From: Haloglomus litoreum
GTDB lineage: Archaea; Halobacteriota; Halobacteria; Halobacteriales; Haloarculaceae
Assembly (NCBI RefSeq): GCF_029338515.1
Contig: NZ_CP119988.1
Coordinates: forward strand, 3,844,001 to 3,908,000
Direction of reading: 5' to 3'
Length of the DNA stretch: 64,000 bases
Positions 4,810 through 35,364 of this stretch are shown one piece after another (positions within the stretch are counted from its first letter, which is position 1; every line of letters begins with the position of its first letter). Below the pieces are notes generated by a model, which was given only the letters and a program-made list of their open reading frames with translations, searched no databases and was not told the DNA's origin. The translations under genes were made by a program, and so were the position numbers.

Positions 4810-6135
4810 ATGAGCGGGGTCGACGACGAACTCGAGGACGCTGGGCGGTCCGTCCGGCGTGCGAGCCGGGGGCTGTTCCGGGTCCGTGCGGCTATCGGCC
4901 TCGTCACCGTCGTCGCCCTCCTCTCTATCGTCACCGGTATCATCAACATCGGTGGCACGGAGACGTCCGGACTGCTCTCGGCGTACGTCCCGCAGTCCGT
5001 CGAGCAGGCGTTCGGGTTCACCGGCGCGCTCACGGGGTTCATCCTGCTCGCCACCACCGCCGGCCTCCGCCGGGGGGTCCGTGTCGCCTGGGGCATCGCG
5101 GTCGTCCTCCTCCCCGTGACGGCGTTCCAGGGACTCGTCGGGTCCACCGGGGTCGCGGTCGCCGGCCGGACCATCCCCGTGGCGACGCCGCTGGTCGCGC
5201 TCTCCGTGCTGTCGCTGCTCGGTCTGCTCATCAACTTCCGCGCGTTCGACCGGGAGTTCGACCTCGCAACGACGCAGCTGGCGGCGCTGGCGGCCATCAT
5301 CGGGGCGCAGGTGTACGGGACGGCGGGCGCGTTCGCCCTGCAGGACGGCTTCAGCGGCGTCGATTCGCTGACCGATGCCTTCTACTTCGCCCTTGTCACC
5401 GCATCCACGGTGGGCTACGGCGACGTGACACCCGAGACCGAAACCGCGAAGTTGTTCGCCATGAGCGCCCTCGTCATCGGGACGGCATCGTTCGCGGTCG
5501 CGCTGGGGACGCTGCTGACACCGGCCATCGAGGCCCGTCTCGCCGAGGCACTGGGAACCATGAACGAATCACGACTGGAACTGCTGGACGACCACGTCAT
5601 CGTGGTCGGGTTCAGCGACATGACGGAACCGATACTCGAGGAACTGGGCCGGGTCGACTTCATCGTCATCACCCGCAACGAGGAGAAGGCCCGACGCCTC
5701 CGGAACCGCGACATCGAGGTCGTCGTCGCGGATCCCTCCGACGAGGAGCCGCTCCGGAAGGTCGGCATCGAGCGGGCCCGCGCGCTCGTGGCCGCCACCG
5801 ACGACGACGCCCAGGACGCCCTCGCGATTCTCACGGCCCGGGAGCTCAACCCCAAGCTGAACATCGTCGCCGCGGCGACCGAGCGACAGAACGAGAAGAA
5901 GCTCAAGCGCGCCGGCGCCGACACGGTCGTCTCGCCGGCCGTCATCGGCGGCCACCTGCTCGCCCAGTCCGCGCTCGGCGGGGGCGCCGGCGTGGAGAAC
6001 TTCGCCGCCCGCATCGCCGAGGCCGACGAGCAGGAGATCGCGGCCGCCGACGAGGAACTGGCCGAGGGAGCGGACGGCGAGAGCACCGAAGCCAGGGCCG
6101 CGGACGACGACGAGGACGGAGAAGCCGAGCCGTAA
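4810..6135 (+). CDS. Potassium channel with RCK (TrkA-N) domain
   Basis: 441 residues. Hydrophobic spans at about 28-48, 68-85, 92-112 and 121-142 are followed by a pore module: S5 about 157-177, pore loop with the K+ selectivity filter TVGYGD at 200-205, and S6 about 214-240. From about residue 262 a Rossmann-type RCK/TrkA-N domain begins (HVIVVGFSD, then VVVADPSDEEPLRKVGI and ALVAATDDDAQDALAIL). The tail is acidic low-complexity sequence. The nucleotide-binding loop is GFSDMTE rather than a classic GxGxxG. The family gates K+ flow in response to ligands bound to the RCK ring; the ligand is unknown. ATG 4810 is chosen over TTG 4783 because of promoter spacing. Confidence 0.9.
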   Translation: MSGVDDELEDAGRSVRRASRGLFRVRAAIGLVTVVALLSIVTGIINIGGTETSGLLSAYVPQSVEQAFGFTGALTGFILLATTAGLRRGVRVAWGIAVVLLPVTAFQGLVGSTGVAVAGRTIPVATPLVALSVLSLLGLLINFRAFDREFDLATTQLAALAAIIGAQVYGTAGAFALQDGFSGVDSLTDAFYFALVTASTVGYGDVTPETETAKLFAMSALVIGTASFAVALGTLLTPAIEARLAEALGTMNESRLELLDDHVIVVGFSDMTEPILEELGRVDFIVITRNEEKARRLRNRDIEVVVADPSDEEPLRKVGIERARALVAATDDDAQDALAILTARELNPKLNIVAAATERQNEKKLKRAGADTVVSPAVIGGHLLAQSALGGGAGVENFAARIAEADEQEIAAADEELAEGADGESTEARAADDDEDGEAEP

Positions 6136-6244: not shown

Positions 6245-6922
6245 TTACGCGAACGCCCGCAGGAGGCCCTGGCCGTCGGTCCCGGCGTGCAGGTCGGGGA
6301 GCGTCGCGCGCTCCGGGTGGGGCATCAGGACGGCGACGGACTCGCGCTCGCCCAGGACGCCCGCGACGTTCCCCTTCGAGCCGTTGGGGTTCGCCGCGTC
6401 GGTGACCTCGCCGTCGGCGTCGCAGTAGCGGAACAGGACCCGGTTCTCCGCGACCAGGTCGTCGTAGCGGTCGTCGGCGATCTCGAAGCGGCCCTCGCCG
6501 TGGGCGATGGGCAGGCGGATGACGTCGCCCTCGTCGAAGACGCTCGTGAACGGCGTGTCCGCGCGCTCGACGCGGCAGTGGACGTGCTCGCACTGGAAGC
6601 GGGCGCTCCGGTTGGTCGTGAACGCGCCGGGGGTGAGGCCGGACTCGGAGCCGATCTGCGCGCCGTTGCAGACTCCGAGGACGGGCGTTCCCTCGTCGGC
6701 GACCTCGCGGACCTCCGCCATGATGGGCGAGCGCGCGGCCATCGCGCCGGCCCGGAGGTAGTCACCGTAGGAGAACCCGCCGGGGATGACGACGCCCGAG
6801 GGGTCGGCCGGGAGGCCGTCCTCGTGCCAGACGATGTCGGCCTCGACGCCCAGGTGTTCGAGGGCGCGGACGGCGTCGCGGTCGCAGTTCGAGCCGCCGA
6901 AGCGGATGACGGCGACGGTCAC
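6245..6922 (-). CDS. purQ: Phosphoribosylformylglycinamidine synthase, glutaminase subunit
   Basis: 225 residues. Class I glutamine amidotransferase that supplies ammonia for FGAR to FGAM conversion in purine synthesis, acting with PurS and PurL (PurL is not in this window). The N-terminus is typical (TVAVIRFGGSNCDRD), the nucleophile Cys85 sits in GVCNGAQ, the oxyanion region is IPGGFSYGDYLR, and the His of the triad is in MPHPERA near the end. An in-frame GTG at 6931 exists, but the GTG at 6922 gives the family length and is preceded by GAGGTGGTC. A 56 bp tandem duplication lies directly upstream and puts a 19-codon ORF over the start. Confidence 0.95.
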   Translation of the reverse strand: MTVAVIRFGGSNCDRDAVRALEHLGVEADIVWHEDGLPADPSGVVIPGGFSYGDYLRAGAMAARSPIMAEVREVADEGTPVLGVCNGAQIGSESGLTPGAFTTNRSARFQCEHVHCRVERADTPFTSVFDEGDVIRLPIAHGEGRFEIADDRYDDLVAENRVLFRYCDADGEVTDAANPNGSKGNVAGVLGERESVAVLMPHPERATLPDLHAGTDGQGLLRAFA

Positions 6923-7017
6923 AGCGACCACCTCGGGTGGGCGTCGGGCGTCGACGTCATCATCGAGGCGACGGTCACAGCGACCACCTCGGGTGGGCGT
7001 CGGGCGTCGACGTCATC
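6912..7017. repeat. 56-bp tandem duplication at the purQ start
   Basis: Fifty bases at 6912-6961 recur identically at 6968-7017, an offset of 56. The unit contains the purQ ribosome-binding region and GTG start with its first codons, so the start signal exists twice in tandem. The perfect identity suggests a recent event. Confidence 0.95.
6919..6978 (-). CDS. Short leader ORF created by the duplication, overlapping purQ start
   Basis: The duplicated copy of the purQ start begins GTG ACC GTC GCC and then runs through the repeat junction for 19 codons to CTG TGA. The TGA overlaps the purQ GTG (CTGTGACC). The copy keeps the GAGGTGG ribosome-binding sequence, so ribosomes could load here and reinitiate at purQ. 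Whether it is translated is unknown; it may be only a by-product of the duplication. The predicted 19-residue peptide has no recognisable function. Confidence 0.45.
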   Translation of the reverse strand: MTVASMMTSTPDAHPRWSL

Positions 7018-7030
7018 GTGCCTGCGACCG

Positions 7031-7282
7031 TCACCGCTGGTCGACCTCCACGGTGTAGTCGTGGATGGTGGGGTTGGCGAGCAGTCGCTCGGCCATCTCC
7101 TCCGCGCGGTCGGCCGCCGCGTCGGCGTCCTCGGCGTCGAGGTCCACCTCGAAGCGGTCGGCCGAGCGGAGGTCGGCCAGCTCGAACCCGAGTCGTTCGA
7201 GCGCCTCCTGGGTGCGTTCGGCCTCCGGATCCAGCACGCCGTGCTTGAGCCGGACCGTCACGACGGCGGTGTAGGCGGTCAT
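7031..7282 (-). CDS. purS: Phosphoribosylformylglycinamidine synthase subunit PurS
   Basis: 83 residues, the usual PurS length. PurS is the small subunit that bridges PurQ and PurL in FGAM synthetase. The sequence MTAYTAVVTVRLKHGVLDPEA is a typical PurS start, followed by a family-like EALERLGF segment and an acidic ADAAADRAEEM helix. The ORF is open further upstream, but ATG 7282 sits about 27 bases downstream of a TATA-like GTTTTGTC (plus strand 7305-7312). The gap of 108 bases to purQ would be about 52 without the tandem duplication. Confidence 0.93.
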   Translation of the reverse strand: MTAYTAVVTVRLKHGVLDPEAERTQEALERLGFELADLRSADRFEVDLDAEDADAAADRAEEMAERLLANPTIHDYTVEVDQR

Positions 7283-7304
7283 GTCCGAGGGGCGGTGGCG
7301 GCCG

Positions 7305-7312
7305 GACAAAAC
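7305..7312 (-). promoter_or_regulatory. TATA box of the purS-purQ operon
   Basis: GTTTTGTC on the minus strand, about 26 bases upstream of the purS ATG at 7282. Confidence 0.5.
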
Positions 7313-7437
7313 GGTTCTGTTGTGCGGGGCGGCCCCGCCGTTTGACAGACCGGGGAGCGAGCCCGCGTGACGGGAATCTCGACGAACGAGAATCGACAAC
7401 CGAGTTAACACATCTCATCCCGTGGGTTCCAGATACC

Positions 7438-8511
7438 ATGTCCATGCAGGCAGTGGTACTGGAGGCGTTCAAGGAACCGCTCGACGTGACGGAGGTCGAC
7501 CGACCGGAGCCGGATGTCGACGGGCTCGTGGCCCGGGTCGACGGCTGTGGGGTCTGTCGCAGTGACTGGCACTGCTGGCAGGGCGACTGGGACTGGTTCA
7601 ACTACCGCCCGGACCCGCCACACGTGCTGGGCCACGAACCGACAGGGACCGTCGTGAAGGTCGGCGAGGAGGTGGAGCGCTTCCGGGAGGGCGACAAGAT
7701 CGCGATCCCGTTCAACTTCGCGTGCGGGAAGTGCGACCTCTGCCGGAACGGCCACGAGAACATCTGCGAGAACCACATCGGCCTCGGCTTCATGAACGAG
7801 GCGCCCGGCGCGTTCGCCGAGGAGGTCCACATCCCGACCGCCGACATCAACGCCGTCCCGCTCCCGGACGGCATCGACACGGAGACGGCGGCCGGCATCG
7901 GCTGTCGCTTCATGACATCCTACCACGGGATGGCCCACCAGGGCGACGTGGGCAACGGCGAGGACGTCGTCGTCCACGGCCTGGGGGGCATCGGCCTCTC
8001 GGCCGTCCAGATCGCCAACGCGCTCGGCGCGAACGTCATCGGCGTCGACCTGATGGACGAGAAACTCGCGAAGGCCGAGGAGCTGGGCGCCGTCGCGACG
8101 GTCAACGCCAGAGAGATCGACGACCCCGCGAAGGAGGTCCGGGACATGACCGACGGCGGCGCGGACGTCTCCGTCGACGCGCTCGGCATCGCGACGACGT
8201 GCCAGAACGCCGTCCGCTCGCTCGGCAAGGGCGGCCGCCACGTCCAGATCGGCCTCACGACCTCCGAGGAGGAGGGGATGGTGCCGCTGCCGACCGACGA
8301 GTTCGTCGCGAAGGAGATCGAGTTCGTCGGCTCGCTGGGGCTGCAGCCCTCGAAGTACTCGGAGATGCTGTCGATGATCGAGACGGGCAAGCTCGACCCG
8401 ACCGCGCTCGTCGAGGAGACCATCGACATCCACCAGATCCCCGACCGGCTGGAGGCGATGACCGACTACGGGACGATGGGCATCCCGGTCTGTAACGACT
8501 TCACGGCGTAG
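7438..8511 (+). CDS. Zinc-dependent alcohol dehydrogenase
   Basis: 357 residues, medium-chain dehydrogenase/reductase. Catalytic zinc ligands are Cys40 (GVCRSDWH) and His66/Glu67 (LGHEPTG), and the structural zinc lobe has Cys96, Cys99, Cys102 and Cys110. The nucleotide-binding loop is GLGGIGLSAVQIA, followed by an acidic residue at the end of the second strand (VIGVDLMDEK), which favours NAD. Substrate unknown; cytoplasmic. The start ATG TCC ATG CAG at 7438 fits the family N-terminus (QAVVLEAF). The ORF is open upstream, but that extension has no family resemblance. The gene is divergent from purS. Confidence 0.92.
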   Translation: MSMQAVVLEAFKEPLDVTEVDRPEPDVDGLVARVDGCGVCRSDWHCWQGDWDWFNYRPDPPHVLGHEPTGTVVKVGEEVERFREGDKIAIPFNFACGKCDLCRNGHENICENHIGLGFMNEAPGAFAEEVHIPTADINAVPLPDGIDTETAAGIGCRFMTSYHGMAHQGDVGNGEDVVVHGLGGIGLSAVQIANALGANVIGVDLMDEKLAKAEELGAVATVNAREIDDPAKEVRDMTDGGADVSVDALGIATTCQNAVRSLGKGGRHVQIGLTTSEEEGMVPLPTDEFVAKEIEFVGSLGLQPSKYSEMLSMIETGKLDPTALVEETIDIHQIPDRLEAMTDYGTMGIPVCNDFTA

Positions 8512-13804: not shown

Positions 13805-14593
13805 CTAGCAGAAGTTCTGTGTCGCGTACACCGACCCATCGACGATGACGATGCCGATACCCTGGCGGGTGAAGCGCTCCTTCAGGATGGCCTCGCGGTG
13901 GCCCTCGGAGTTCATCCACTCGCGGACGACGTGGTCGGCGAGGGTCCGCTCGGTCGCCGCCAGGCCGCCGCCACGGGTCAGGTAGATGTTCTCGCCGCCG
14001 TTGCAGTCGATGCCGAAGCGGCTGTAGCGATCCGAGACCGTCTCGCCGTCCGGCCCCTCGTGGGCGAAGTAGTCCCGGTCGTGCATATCCCGGGAGTGGA
14101 AGGCGGCCACGGCGGCCAAGTCGGCGTCGTAGTCGAGCGGGTCGAGGCCGTTCGCGGCCCGGCGCTCGTTCACCTCCTCGGCGACGAGGTGCTCGACGCG
14201 GGTCTCGTTGAGGCCGTCCCCGGCGGCCGCGCCCGGCCCGGGGGCCGCGAACACGACCAGCAGCGCCGCGACCAGGACCACGAGCAGGCTTCCAGCAGCC
14301 ATGTACGCGCCGCTCCGGGATGGCGTCAGGAGCTCGCGCCAGCCCGGGTCCTCGCGGGCTGTGCCCGCTGTGGTGCTGTCCTCGCGGGCTGTACCCGCTG
14401 TGGTACCGCCCTCGCGGATCGGCTCCCTCGCGGGACCGTCGAGGTCGATGATCCAGCCGCCCGTCCGCTCGGCGTCGAGCCCGGGGCAGTCGTGTGCGTC
14501 GGTCGGCCGGTGGGCCGCACAGACCGGCCGTCCGCAGTGGGGACAGGCGGCCGTGACGGACGTCTCCCGGCCACAGACGACGCAATCGGCCAT
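13805..14593 (-). CDS. Zinc-finger / membrane-anchored CAP (SCP/PR1) domain protein
   Basis: 262 residues. An N-terminal AN1-like zinc finger has Cys/His pairs CVVCGRE, CPHCGRPVCAAHR and HDC (residues 4-36). A linker with a duplicated TTAGTARED unit (about 64-82) follows, then one membrane span (about 97-117), then a CAP domain (about 128-262) with HSRDMHDRDYFAH and DHVVREWMNSEGHREAI, which hold the usual His/Glu cavity residues. The CAP domain should be outside the cell and the zinc finger inside. ATG 14593 is supported by a TATA-like CTTTTGACCC 27 bases upstream. The role of archaeal CAP proteins is poorly known. Confidence 0.83.
   Translation of the reverse strand: MADCVVCGRETSVTAACPHCGRPVCAAHRPTDAHDCPGLDAERTGGWIIDLDGPAREPIREGGTTAGTAREDSTTAGTAREDPGWRELLTPSRSGAYMAAGSLLVVLVAALLVVFAAPGPGAAAGDGLNETRVEHLVAEEVNERRAANGLDPLDYDADLAAVAAFHSRDMHDRDYFAHEGPDGETVSDRYSRFGIDCNGGENIYLTRGGGLAATERTLADHVVREWMNSEGHREAILKERFTRQGIGIVIVDGSVYATQNFC
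14351..14410. repeat. Two 30-bp tandem repeats inside the CAP gene
   Basis: Bases 14351-14380 and 14381-14410 are near-identical in-frame copies that encode the TTAGTARED linker units, a coding minisatellite. Confidence 0.9.
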
Positions 14594-15427
14594 GGACCGG
14601 AGTAGGGACTCACGGGTCAAAAGCGGCGCGCCACAGCCCTCTACGGGGCGACAGGACCACCGGCACACGACACCTGATGGTCGGCACCCGAGCGACGGGG
14701 TTGCTATCTCCAGTTGAAAGACAAGTGGTCCCCGTGTTTATTAGGTACCAGGCCACATCCCAGGGTGCGGGATACCCGTCCGCCTCTGACCCCACATCGG
14801 GCGCGGGAGCCCGCATCGTAGCATCCGAGGCCGCGCGCGGTCGGGGAGGCGTCGCCCACACGGCGCTACACCCCTCCGGGGAGATGGATGCTTCCGGTAC
14901 CTTCGCCATCGAGAGCGACGGTTCTGGACGCCGTGAACTGCGGCACCGGGGCCGACGACACCCAGCATCTGATACCAGCGGTGACCGGATCTCGGACGAC
15001 TCCCGCGACCGACGTGACGACCGCTCACCGGCCGAGCAGCTCTCGGACGGGAGAACGGGCAGCCGGTTGGGGGGGAGAGAAGCCGGTGTCACGGCTGCCC
15101 ACGTCATACGTTACCACCCTGAGGGCTTAATTCCGTCGGTCCTGCGTCAGAAACGCCTGCGAACCGGCGGAGCGACGGCTCGACTCCCCGCCACCGCGAT
15201 CCAGTCACGCAGTTCTCTTCCGGGCGTTCTGCGGTCGCGGGCACGGCTAATCGAGCGTTCCGTCCGGATCGCTTCCCGGCGGAACCCGTCGCGACGACAC
15301 GGACGCACCGAGGGCCGGGACCCCTGGAACAGGCCGGCGATGGCACGGTGACCGAGGGAGGCCCCACCCTGTCCACCGGACTCGACCGGCCGGGCCGATC
15401 CGGTAGCCAACAGGGCCTGAACGGAGG
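14594..15427. other. 834-bp region without a convincing gene
   Basis: Several overlapping open frames exist (the longest 224 codons, plus strand), but they show Arg/Ser/Pro-rich shadow composition, no acidic bias and no recognised family. Visible elements are TATA-like GTTTATTAGG at 14736-14745 and GGCTTAATTCC at 15125-15135, neither followed at about 27 bases by a persuasive start. It may hold an RNA gene or a decayed gene. Confidence 0.5.
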
Positions 15428-16486
15428 TTACGCCGAGCCGGGGACCTCGAGCAACCGCTCCAGCGCAGTCTCGAACGTCGATCGCCCGCGACTCTCGGCG
15501 ACGGAGAAGGTCTCGACGCCGACCTCGTCGGTCACGAGCCGTCTCGATAGCTCGGTGTCACACACCGGCCCGACGATCATGTCGGGCTCGAGCCCGTACC
15601 GTTCCTGCAGCAGGTCCACACCCCCGACCGCCCCGCATTCATCGGCCGCCGAGAACACCAGTACGTCGATGTCCTCCATCAGACTGGATTCCAGCACGTG
15701 TCGGGGCCCATACGTCAGGATGCCCCCACCGAGTTCCGCCAGAACGACGTCGGTCTCCTTTCCTCGCAGGTGGCCGAGTACGGTTTCAGCGCACCGTATC
15801 GATTCCTCCCGCTCGGTCGTGCAGGAGACCCCGACATCGGAGAAGTCGGATGTGGCCGCCGCTCCCGCGGCCTCGAAACGCAGTAGATCCCGGCGCATGA
15901 CCGTCCCCGTGAGTTTGCCCGCCCCGACCTCCAGGGAGGCCGATAGGGCGTCGACACCTGCCTCGACAGCGCTCGTCTTGCCCGATTCCATCGAGGTCCC
16001 GCAGAACAGGGCCGTCGGGACGTTCCCCGGCTCCGGACCGGAGGTCGGTGTGAGGCGTGGGTGGTCGGTAACGTTGACCGCTTCGCCGTCAGCCATCAGG
16101 AACCCGACGATCGACACCCGGGTCGGCGCGAAGGAGGGGATCGCAGACCAGACCTCCCCGATCAACCCGCTCTCGATCAGCAGGGACAGCCCGGTCTCCT
16201 CGGAGCTGATTCCGCCTTCCGGGACCCCTCCGTGGAGCTCTTTGACAGCGGGTCTCGTCCCCAGACAGCCCACGACCGACTTCCCAGGGCGTAACGGCAT
16301 TTGCTCGCCGTCCTCCAGCTCGATCGCGTCGATCGGCGTTCCGCCGCGCTCGATCCGGAACACGCAGACATCGCCCTCGTGTCCCACCCCGTCTTCAACT
16401 GACAGGGTCCCGTCGAAGGGCACGTGTCGGACGCTGGAGCTTCGGTAGACGTCATCGGGTAGCTCGGAGGAGACGGTCGAGCGCAT
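15428..16486 (-). CDS. P-loop NTPase of BioD/MobB-like type with N-terminal beta domain
   Basis: 352 residues, not assigned to a named function. Residues about 20-145 are beta-rich (GDVCVFRIERGG, LRPGKSVVGCLGTRPA, EVWSAIPSF). Residues 160-172 hold a Walker A motif, FCGTSMESGKTS. Then come KLTGTVMRRD (about 191-200), SDFSDVGVSCT, a Walker B-like VVLAELGGGILTYG (about 248-260) and LVFSAADECGAVGG, an order resembling BioD, MobB and DUF1611 proteins that use ATP or GTP with a small substrate. It is divergent, with 59 bases between starts, from a C-terminally anchored unknown; a GNAT gene follows that one. Base composition is less GC-rich than around it, suggesting transfer. Confidence 0.75.
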   Translation of the reverse strand: MRSTVSSELPDDVYRSSSVRHVPFDGTLSVEDGVGHEGDVCVFRIERGGTPIDAIELEDGEQMPLRPGKSVVGCLGTRPAVKELHGGVPEGGISSEETGLSLLIESGLIGEVWSAIPSFAPTRVSIVGFLMADGEAVNVTDHPRLTPTSGPEPGNVPTALFCGTSMESGKTSAVEAGVDALSASLEVGAGKLTGTVMRRDLLRFEAAGAAATSDFSDVGVSCTTEREESIRCAETVLGHLRGKETDVVLAELGGGILTYGPRHVLESSLMEDIDVLVFSAADECGAVGGVDLLQERYGLEPDMIVGPVCDTELSRRLVTDEVGVETFSVAESRGRSTFETALERLLEVPGSA

Positions 16487-16545
16487 GCCAGAGAGCTATA
16501 CTATCCAGCACAAAGTATGTTGAGTGTGGCAGGAACTGTTGTCGC

Positions 16546-17433
16546 ATGGGCGTAGTGGTCATCGCCGAGGGGAGGTGTCAACCCGACACCGATGTCGTGG
16601 TCGAGGAGCTCGATACGACCGCGTGGCTCACCGGTGGCTCGTTGTTTGACAGTGGGAGTGCCATCGTCAGAAACACCCTTCACGTCCGGTGCAACAGCGG
16701 CTCGCTCGACTCCCTCGAGTTCGTCATCGCCGGCGAGGTCGGCAGCATCCAGGATTGTTCGGACATCTACCGCGACGAGGACTATGTCGAGTACATCACG
16801 ACGTTCGTCGACCAGGCCGGAACGGTAGAGCAGGAGCAGGATGGGGTCGTCTACTACGACGGGGAGACCCATCGACGAATCAACCGTCTGACCGTTCGCG
16901 AGACACGGGAGTTCGACCGTGGAACGCTAATCCACACGGAACTGGACGAACCGATATCCGCCGGAGAGGACCACCTCATCACGTTACAGTATCGACGACC
17001 GGACTTCGCCAGTCCCTTCGTTCCGGTCCTCTCGAAACGGCAGGAGATCGATACCCGGATCTATTCCATCTACGACGTCTGGGGGGACGCTCCGCTCATG
17101 TCACAGGTGCGTGATATGTCGCCCATCCCCGTAGAAGACGTCGGTATCTGGTTCGGCCTTCCTCCGGGTCGCAGTCCAGTCTCGTTGCGACCCGCTCCCG
17201 ATCGGCAGACGTCCGTCGTCGTCCAGCACCCCGGCTACGCGAGGGAGGAGCTGGAAACCGAAGGGTATACCGGGATCTTCTGGAGTTTCGAGGCGATCGA
17301 GTGCGAGTTCGCGAAGGACGACGTCGAGGTCCACTGTCAGTACGACGACATAACACTCTCGTGGCGACTCGTCGTGATCTCGCTCCTGCTGACAATACTC
17401 GGTACCGCTGCTGGGCTACTCACGCTGCTCTGA
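16546..17433 (+). CDS. Unknown protein with C-terminal membrane anchor
   Basis: 295 residues, not recognised. No signal peptide is seen; the N-terminus (MGVVVIAEGRCQPDTD) leads into a long acidic, beta-rich, Tyr-containing soluble part. One hydrophobic span fills the last 24 residues (about 272-295), as in tail-anchored proteins, so the bulk should face the cytoplasm unless export is unconventional. Cysteines near residues 49 and 64 and near 272 are present but form no clear motif. It shares a 59 bp divergent promoter region with the P-loop gene and precedes a GNAT gene by 46 bases. It is probably part of one functional cassette, by inference from layout only. Confidence 0.7.
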   Translation: MGVVVIAEGRCQPDTDVVVEELDTTAWLTGGSLFDSGSAIVRNTLHVRCNSGSLDSLEFVIAGEVGSIQDCSDIYRDEDYVEYITTFVDQAGTVEQEQDGVVYYDGETHRRINRLTVRETREFDRGTLIHTELDEPISAGEDHLITLQYRRPDFASPFVPVLSKRQEIDTRIYSIYDVWGDAPLMSQVRDMSPIPVEDVGIWFGLPPGRSPVSLRPAPDRQTSVVVQHPGYAREELETEGYTGIFWSFEAIECEFAKDDVEVHCQYDDITLSWRLVVISLLLTILGTAAGLLTLL

Positions 17434-17479
17434 CCGTATGTGCGACAACGATTTGCCGCCCCGGTCCACTGATTAGACC

Positions 17480-18022
17480 ATGCTTCTTCGATTCTCCGAG
17501 GGTGTCGGGGAGTACGCCGATCAGGTTCGTGCCATCCTGAGGTCGGTCGACGAGGAGTTCGTCCCCCCGCTCTCGAGTCGGTCGGGGACCGCAGAGGTGG
17601 ATGACCTCGGTGGGGACGAGGGAAGCGGGATCGATTCGTACTTCCAGGCCTGTCTGGATCAGCAGTTCCTGTTCGCTGAGACGGACGACGAACTCGTCGG
17701 TGTTCTCTCCTACCGGCACCGGTACACTCCCCCGTTCCTGCGACGGTTCTCGCCGTCGAACTACCCGACGATTCTGGCGGTCCGCCGCGAGTGGCGGAAC
17801 GAGGGCGTCGGAACGGCGTTGTATCGGACCTTCCTGTTCGATCTACCACCGGCGTACAGGCTCCCGTACGTCGTCGCTCGGACGTGGAACGAGAACGTTC
17901 GGAGCATCCGGCTCCACGAGAAGTTCGGCTTCGACCGGGTCCATACGATCCCCAACCACCGGGCGCCCGGCGTTCACACCGTCTACTTCGCGAAGGCGCT
18001 GTCTCCCCACGACGGGGAGTAG
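17480..18022 (+). CDS. GNAT-family N-acetyltransferase
   Basis: 180 residues. Residues about 55-170 have the GNAT order: QQFLFAETDDELVGVLSYRHR (beta strands), then TILAVRREWRNEGVGTALYRTFL, where RNEGVG fits the acetyl-CoA pyrophosphate loop (R/Q-x-x-G-x-G/A), then VARTWNENVRSIRLHEKFGFDRVHTIPN, the usual end of the fold. Acceptor unknown. ATG 17480 lies 46 bases after the preceding gene; the CTGATTAGACC stretch 17-27 bases upstream may be a weak promoter. It could modify a partner encoded by the two genes before it. Confidence 0.85.
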   Translation: MLLRFSEGVGEYADQVRAILRSVDEEFVPPLSSRSGTAEVDDLGGDEGSGIDSYFQACLDQQFLFAETDDELVGVLSYRHRYTPPFLRRFSPSNYPTILAVRREWRNEGVGTALYRTFLFDLPPAYRLPYVVARTWNENVRSIRLHEKFGFDRVHTIPNHRAPGVHTVYFAKALSPHDGE

Positions 18023-18067
18023 CCGCGGGGCTCCGCCATCACGTCGGTCGCCACTCGCTACGGCGGC

Positions 18068-18727
18068 CTACCACCCGGACCAGGCGACGGAGGTCTTCGA
18101 CTCGTCGCGGGCGTACACCCGCTTGATGTGTTTGGCTGGCGCCTGGTCGCCCGCGTAGTCGAGTTTCTGCTGGCCGTAGCGCTCCACGTCGTCGCGGAGG
18201 TAGATGCCCTCGACGGTGAACTCGGCGTCCGCGTACTCGTGGGTCTCGCCGACCGTGAACACCTCGTCGCCGGGCACCCGGACCGTCGTGGAGTACGTCG
18301 AGTCGTGGCGGCCGTCCTTCGGGTGGAGGGTGAGGTCGACCGAGACGTTGCCGACGACGCGCGTCCACACCGTCTTCACGTCGTCGACGGGCGCGGCGTC
18401 GGTCCGGGGGGACTCGTCCTCGCCGGCGAGTTCGAGGCTGGTCACCGCCACCGAGAGGATGGCCTCGTCGGTCTCGACGAGGAACTCGTCGTCGACCGAC
18501 AGCCGCTCGTCGGGGTCGAACTCGACGCTGGCGTCGAAGGAGTCGCCCTCCTGCGAGACGATGACCCGGCGCTCGACCGTCGGCTCGCTCGGCAGGTCCG
18601 TCTTGTGGACGTGGGCACACTCCGTACAGCGGACGGTGGCGTGACCGCTCTCGTGCAGGACCTCGTGGACCGTCTCGTCCCCCGGCGAGCAGGACGGACA
18701 GGCGACCGCGACGCGGTTCGTGCTCAT
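18068..18727 (-). CDS. HVO_0476-type zinc-finger protein
   Basis: 219 residues. A zinc ribbon at the N-terminus (ACPSCSP ... VRCTECAHVHKT) is followed by an all-beta, acidic domain with TDEAILSVAVTSLEL, DDVKTVWTRVVGNVSVDLTLHP and FTVGETHEYADAEFTVEGIYLRDD. It resembles the haloarchaeal family annotated as HVO_0476 zinc finger proteins; the role is not known. ATG 18727 is supported by GGCTTATACCC on the minus strand about 30 bases upstream. It is convergent with the GNAT gene. Confidence 0.82.
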   Translation of the reverse strand: MSTNRVAVACPSCSPGDETVHEVLHESGHATVRCTECAHVHKTDLPSEPTVERRVIVSQEGDSFDASVEFDPDERLSVDDEFLVETDEAILSVAVTSLELAGEDESPRTDAAPVDDVKTVWTRVVGNVSVDLTLHPKDGRHDSTYSTTVRVPGDEVFTVGETHEYADAEFTVEGIYLRDDVERYGQQKLDYAGDQAPAKHIKRVYARDESKTSVAWSGW

Positions 18728-35273: not shown

Positions 35274-35364
35274 CCGACACCGGCATCCTCCCGCCACGGT
35301 AGTACTGGCAGTCCGGGCGACGACCCCCACAAGACGTTTACTGCGGACGTTCGTGCCGCCGGAC

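Follow-up and report, generated by a model that had tools for sequence, protein, structure and literature searches.

A three-gene cassette occupies the position of pcm at a variable chromosomal locus of Haloglomus litoreum

The closest described counterparts of the proteins considered here are the DUF1611 family (PF07755; structures 2g0t, 2obn and 7xrj), the BioD, MobB and CTP synthetase enzymes, and the GNAT acetyltransferases (PF00583). DgcN, a DUF1611 member, is a D-glutamate N-acetyltransferase. Our searches of the literature on DUF1611 and on 7XRJ brought up nothing relevant, and one on DgcN led to unrelated work on eukaryotic acetyltransferases. We examined a 64,000-nucleotide stretch of the Haloglomus litoreum genome (hereafter the window), a genome assembled as a single contig of 4.7 Mb. 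One protein encoded in the window shares the fold of its P-loop domain with DUF1611, and it has both the Walker A motif and the overall P-loop domain fold in common with BioD, MobB and CTP synthetase. Its gene belongs to a three-gene cassette that, by comparison with other genomes of the genus, stands where the relatives carry pcm.

The P-loop protein gene (15428-16486, minus strand) encodes 352 amino acids, with the Walker A sequence GTSMESGKTS at residues 163-172. Across a gap of 59 bp, it diverges from the gene of an acidic orphan protein of 295 amino acids with one predicted C-terminal membrane span (16546-17433, plus strand; hereafter the C-anchored protein), and 46 bp further on lies a co-directional gene for a GNAT-family N-acetyltransferase of 180 amino acids (17480-18022, plus strand; Pfam PF00583, 7e-11). 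A sequence-only reading of this DNA had proposed these three open reading frames, and their coordinates, spacing, orientation and Walker A motif were all reproduced. Moreover, a codon-based gene caller trained on the window and related loci accepted all three, with scores of 77.6 (P-loop), 68.6 (C-anchored) and 36.7 (GNAT). The gene-poor segment of 834 bp described next to the cassette corresponds to 14594-15427 if the neighboring CAP-domain gene uses an internal ATG, and the caller placed no gene there. The cassette is also less GC-rich than its surroundings, as had been claimed, with values of 0.59-0.68 versus mostly 0.68-0.75 in 500-bp windows. At third codon positions, the GC content (GC3) was 0.818 for the P-loop gene, 0.769 for the C-anchored gene and 0.822 for the GNAT gene, whereas the remaining 46 genes predicted in the window average 0.914 (sd 0.040)—differences that correspond to z values of -2.4, -3.6 and -2.3, respectively. 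Equally low GC3 values were found in two of these 46 genes, starting at 35353 (0.771) and 22464 (0.814). The overall GC content of the P-loop gene has a z value of only -1.2, and the low-GC argument is weak for this gene. The low GC3 of the three genes is compatible with import. Searches for tRNAs, Rfam families and PADLOC systems gave no match at the cassette locus, and none of the three proteins matched a PADLOC anti-phage defense profile at E<=1 (0 families). Likewise, no sigma-70-like site was found at the locus in a search that is unsuited to archaea.

The flanks of the cassette are shared with other members of the genus. On the left lies a gene (13805-14668, minus strand) for a protein with an AN1 zinc finger and a CAP (SCP/YkwD) domain (Pfam CAP 9e-19, zf-AN1 2e-6), whose DNA is 79-82% identical to that of three congeners (G403, G389 and G417). 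On the right lies a gene for a CPxCG-related zinc-finger protein (18068-18721, minus strand; Pfam PF19769, 9.5e-48), 93% and 90% identical in amino acid sequence to congeneric proteins; position 18721 is the start of the searched stretch, and the true start may be slightly further up. Both flanks are collinear in the three congeners, with pcm between them. In G403 and G417, a pcm gene (Pfam PCMT 3.7e-56) occupies the position of the cassette, starting in G403 6 bp past the zinc-finger gene. The interval in G389 measures 5.3 kb and, past its pcm gene, contains genes for TnpB and a VapC-like PIN protein (L140:3791-8440; TnpB at 6368-7597, guided_TnpB 1.2e-52; PIN gene at 4875-5270). This congener thus carries a different insertion at the same locus, which indicates that the site is variable. 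In a MAFFT alignment of the window with G403 and G417, the intergenic stretch left of the cassette (14884-15427) aligns with the intergenic region of the congeners up to about 15145, including a 46-nt match at 15055-15100. Judged by the limit of this alignment, the left junction should fall between about 15145 and 15428, and the replaced interval would span approximately 15145-18069.

To place this difference in a broader context, we also examined the surroundings of the zinc-finger gene, which has matches in 56 of 57 family genomes. Among the best 20 of these loci (L118-L137), 19 of which come from other genomes, a pcm-type gene was found no more than 1.5 kb from the zinc-finger gene in all 19 of the other genomes—at 60% identity or more in 18 of them (in pieces in L122) and at 42% in L130. 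The zinc-finger gene of the window has no pcm-type neighbor over that distance, and the window contains no PCMT ortholog. Since the congeners and all 19 tested family genomes keep pcm and the window is without it, it is likely, in our view, that the cassette replaced pcm specifically in this lineage, at a variable site of the chromosome. Relative to the congeners the swap itself is observed directly, with pcm replaced in one genome among the four compared within the genus. We infer that the pcm state of the congeners is the ancestral one, with the polarity (gain in the window versus loss elsewhere) set by outgroups for pcm only, and that the cassette was presumably acquired by horizontal transfer. 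In this exchange, the ancestral pcm gene (encoding protein-L-isoaspartate methyltransferase), directly downstream of the zinc-finger gene, would have been lost, and about 3 kb of lower-GC DNA with three unrelated genes would have taken its place. The newcomers would be a solitary divergent P-loop enzyme, an orphan membrane-tethered protein and, co-directional with the latter, a GNAT acetyltransferase.

Within the cassette, the gene caller predicted neither an integrase nor a transposase, and the cassette boundaries show no clear target-site duplication. Of the repeats at the boundaries, only one stands out: an exact inverted pair of 13 nt near the cassette ends (15005-15017 and 18039-18051), which was reached in 2 of 400 shuffles and is missing from the loci of the five relatives that were checked. 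We rejected it as the end of a mobile element; its left arm lies inside the part that aligns with the congeners. A candidate stem-loop at 15040-15120 was likewise dropped, its folding being no better than that of shuffled sequences (z -0.03). A literature search on pcm loss in haloarchaea retrieved nothing relevant. The locus offers a clean example of gene replacement—a modest result, in which the cost is a pcm copy kept by the relatives checked.

Turning to the gene products, the C-anchored protein is strongly hydrophobic at its C-terminal end only, with the best 19-residue windows (mean 2.3) starting at residues 275-277 of 295, in agreement with the span first proposed for its very C-terminus. 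The protein had been described as lacking a recognized family, and searches of Pfam, NCBIfam, PADLOC and PHROG indeed gave no accepted match, just as solved structures, plasmids and viral contigs gave no credible one. Two PHROG matches (E 0.033 and 0.23) were taken as chance, and two weak matches in family genomes (E 0.003 and 0.006) were rejected, given that stop codons interrupt the matching stretches and the local open reading frames are unrelated or short. By these searches, the protein appears to be an orphan. The protein could be modeled only poorly (pLDDT 51), and we treat as no more than a lead the likeness that Foldseek found between this model and enzymes of the aminopeptidase N type (best E 8e-4, TMq about 0.26). 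The third protein, called a GNAT enzyme from the outset, reaches a gathering-level match to Pfam Acetyltransf_1 (42.8 bits vs 20.7; 7e-11) and is an ordinary member of this family.

The P-loop protein yielded a confident model (pLDDT 87.5, pTM 0.87; alignment of 53 sequences), in which a beta-rich N-terminal part, with almost only strands in residues 26-132, precedes a C-terminal P-loop domain of the SIMIBI type. The sequence matches no Pfam or NCBIfam family (in Pfam, 0 families at E<=10), and its single PDB match, to the glucanase 2cyg (E 0.006), was dropped as chance. Profile searches with the P-loop family returned one match at E 0.73 in one case and none in the other. Structural comparison with VIA-align gave Z scores of 17.7 for CTP synthetase, 16.3 for 2g0t, 16.0 for dethiobiotin synthetase and 15.2 for 2obn, with 2g0t superposing at an rmsd of 3.4 over 173 residues and 2obn at 3.0 over 179. 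The top Foldseek hits were HypB and dethiobiotin synthetase, and SIMIBI proteins of other function (HypB, Ffh, ApbC and ParA) score nearly as high. The sequence-only description of a BioD/MobB-like P-loop protein with an N-terminal beta domain is therefore fair as far as the model goes, but the relatives point more often to DUF1611: 47 of the 53 alignment members match DUF1611_C at E<=0.01, versus 6 for CbiA and 2 for MobB, while the window protein itself has no such match. A canonical DUF1611 protein is encoded in the same genome about 2.2 Mb away (L138:7343-8377, 1.8e-75). None of five open reading frames near that gene, some of them probably spurious, matched an epimerase-type family, and an hhalign comparison of the P-loop family alignment with this DUF1611 protein gave a probability of 1.8.

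Among 52 relatives, 67 positions are at least 95% conserved; the window protein keeps 41 of these and has lost 26. The GTSM..GKT motif, K191, D200, the GA..DF.D.G block, E251 and the A.D motif are all retained, and the SPLEPYNG motif is missing. This pattern of retained and lost residues suggests that the protein is a live enzyme acting on another substrate. Because its fold is that of BioD and CTP synthetase, it may be an ATP-dependent enzyme that activates or ligates a small-molecule carboxylate; we hold this assignment tentatively, at slightly less than an even chance, as a shared fold does not prove the reaction.

Relatives of the P-loop protein in other genomes revealed a distinct genetic setting. 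A search of genome contigs with the single protein found nothing, whereas a search with the family profile recovered its relatives, mostly as the last member of a three-gene operon comprising a flavin-reductase-like gene, an M20 peptidase/deacylase gene and the gene for a protein with a beta domain and a DUF1611-like P-loop domain (e.g., L019:8096-10905). The best 80 of 339 candidate stretches from bacterial and archaeal genomes were kept and combined with 11 haloarchaeal loci (L019-L029, from 14 regions, the other three of which came from weak matches), giving 91 loci (L019-L029 and L035-L114). In 77 of these, at least 2.6 kb of DNA was available upstream of the P-loop gene, and both M20-family and flavin-reductase-like genes were found there on the same strand in 74—a proportion biased upwards, as the loci were picked by similarity to the operon clade, and equal to 71 of 74 distinct loci once three contigs counted twice are corrected for (L019/L049, L020/L078 and L021/L084). 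L051, L072 and L074 lack the two partners. Of the other 14 loci, where the upstream DNA was shorter, seven had both partners, five had M20 only and two had neither. The partner names derive from Pfam scans of M20 proteins (L019 and L092) and flavin reductases (L019 and L064), extended to the remaining loci by similarity; operon P-loop members scanned singly reached no Pfam or NCBIfam cut-off. The operon spans Gammaproteobacteria, Bacteroidota, Cyanobacteria and haloarchaea, and it is tightly conserved and apparently uncharacterized. Literature searches on the operon and on a phosphonate cluster found nothing relevant. Four plasmid-borne relatives, out of six matches, lie in other contexts. In Sulfitobacter and two Paracoccus plasmids, the P-loop gene adjoins an ABC transporter gene, and a Priestia megaterium plasmid carries it in a cluster (L177:2754-11442) with genes for ornithine carbamoyltransferase, two ATP-grasp proteins, two TPP proteins, an M20 protein, an LLM oxidoreductase and a PEP-mutase-family protein. 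In L074 (6224-7915), a relative without the usual partners sits beside a divergent GNAT gene, somewhat like the arrangement in the window. We consider this operon family a more interesting outcome than the window itself, and simple biochemical work could suffice to find its substrate.

The question then arises as to whether the three cassette genes belong together. Relatives of the P-loop protein occur in 14 of 391 class genomes at E<=0.001 and in 12 of 391 at E<1e-10 (own genome included). The C-anchored protein was found in its own genome only, both among the 391 class genomes and, apart from the two rejected weak matches, among 146 family genomes. GNAT relatives at E<=1e-8 are present in 16 of 382 class genomes, the 15 other than the host at 34-42% identity, and none of these 15 loci has a relative of the P-loop or C-anchored protein within flanks of up to 1.5 kb. 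The P-loop and GNAT lists share a single other genome (G286), where the two genes lie on different contigs (C8 and C49). Recurrent linkage in unrelated genomes, which the sequence-only reading had named as support for a system, was thus not borne out by the neighborhood search: the three genes are independent in the 382-391 class genomes as far as sampled, the very outcome that this reading had named as its refutation, and nothing shows a recurrent system. The earlier idea of an accessory cassette holds as a lineage-specific insertion replacing pcm and finds no support as a system. A narrowly distributed functional module, such as a cassette for self-protection or small-molecule modification, would fit the tight spacing (59 bp divergent and 46 bp co-directional) and the low GC3 of all three genes. 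The bacterial relative in L074, which also adjoins a divergent GNAT gene (Acetyltransf_4, 2e-16), points the same way, as does the biosynthetic-looking cluster around the Priestia plasmid relative, with its PEP-mutase-family, TPP, ATP-grasp, M20 and exporter genes. However, no linkage was seen in any other genome examined, the C-anchored protein offers no relative to test, and GNAT genes are common, L074 being the only case noticed among 77 loci that were not searched systematically for GNAT genes. We therefore regard such a module as rather improbable. The roles that it might assign—activation of a small molecule by the P-loop enzyme, its acetylation by the GNAT protein, and sensing or protection by the anchored protein—seem improbable to us in much the same degree.

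Somewhat less probable still, and in our view quite unlikely, is the idea that the P-loop protein derives from the operon pathway, still catalyzes its reaction and has shed the partner genes. Its identity of 30-34% over the matched stretch to 11 strong haloarchaeal relatives and the many invariant residues that it retains would agree with such a descent. Against it, the window protein falls outside the operon clade of 53 rows, the large clade nearest to it (support 99/99), although its very long branch (6.4 changes per column) makes this placement unsure, and it lacks SPLEPYNG along with further residues that are nearly invariant in the clade (26 of the 67 conserved positions). Additionally, no ortholog of the operon partners was found in the host genome, where the only matches are weak (E 4e-9 and 8e-5). 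Finally, although the cassette occupies the position of pcm, it is hardly credible that it substitutes functionally for the lost gene in protein repair, as position alone does not imply function, none of the three genes encodes a methyltransferase, and a PCMT-family protein persists elsewhere in the genome (best match E 3.8e-37, only 40% identical to the pcm product of the congeners, besides seven weaker, partial matches).

The cassette proteins also differ from the closest known systems. Compared with DUF1611 proteins, the window P-loop protein has no gathering-level match to PF07755 (two relatives scanned singly were sub-threshold) and, by profile, no DUF1611_N Rossmann-like match, its own N-terminal part being beta-rich instead. 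It differs from BioD and MobB in giving no profile match to them (Pfam/NCBIfam, E<=10) and in the extra beta-rich N-terminal part, and no biotin, molybdopterin or CTP gene was found among the scanned neighbors. Within the GNAT acetyltransferases, the cassette protein reaches no substrate-specific family cut-off. The operon P-loop proteins are homologous to the window protein, with 24-31% identity in the alignment, but the M20 and flavin-reductase genes are absent beside the window gene, whose neighbors are other genes. Drawing these comparisons together, one could picture the window protein as a new branch of a broad superfamily that combines a beta domain with a SIMIBI P-loop domain. The main clade of this superfamily would drive the operon pathway, and other branches would sit in clusters that resemble those for natural products or contain ABC transporters; the cassette would be a minimal module for small-molecule modification, in which a P-loop ligase, a GNAT enzyme and a membrane-anchored partner took the place of a gene for protein repair. 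We offer this combined view as an unlikely suggestion.
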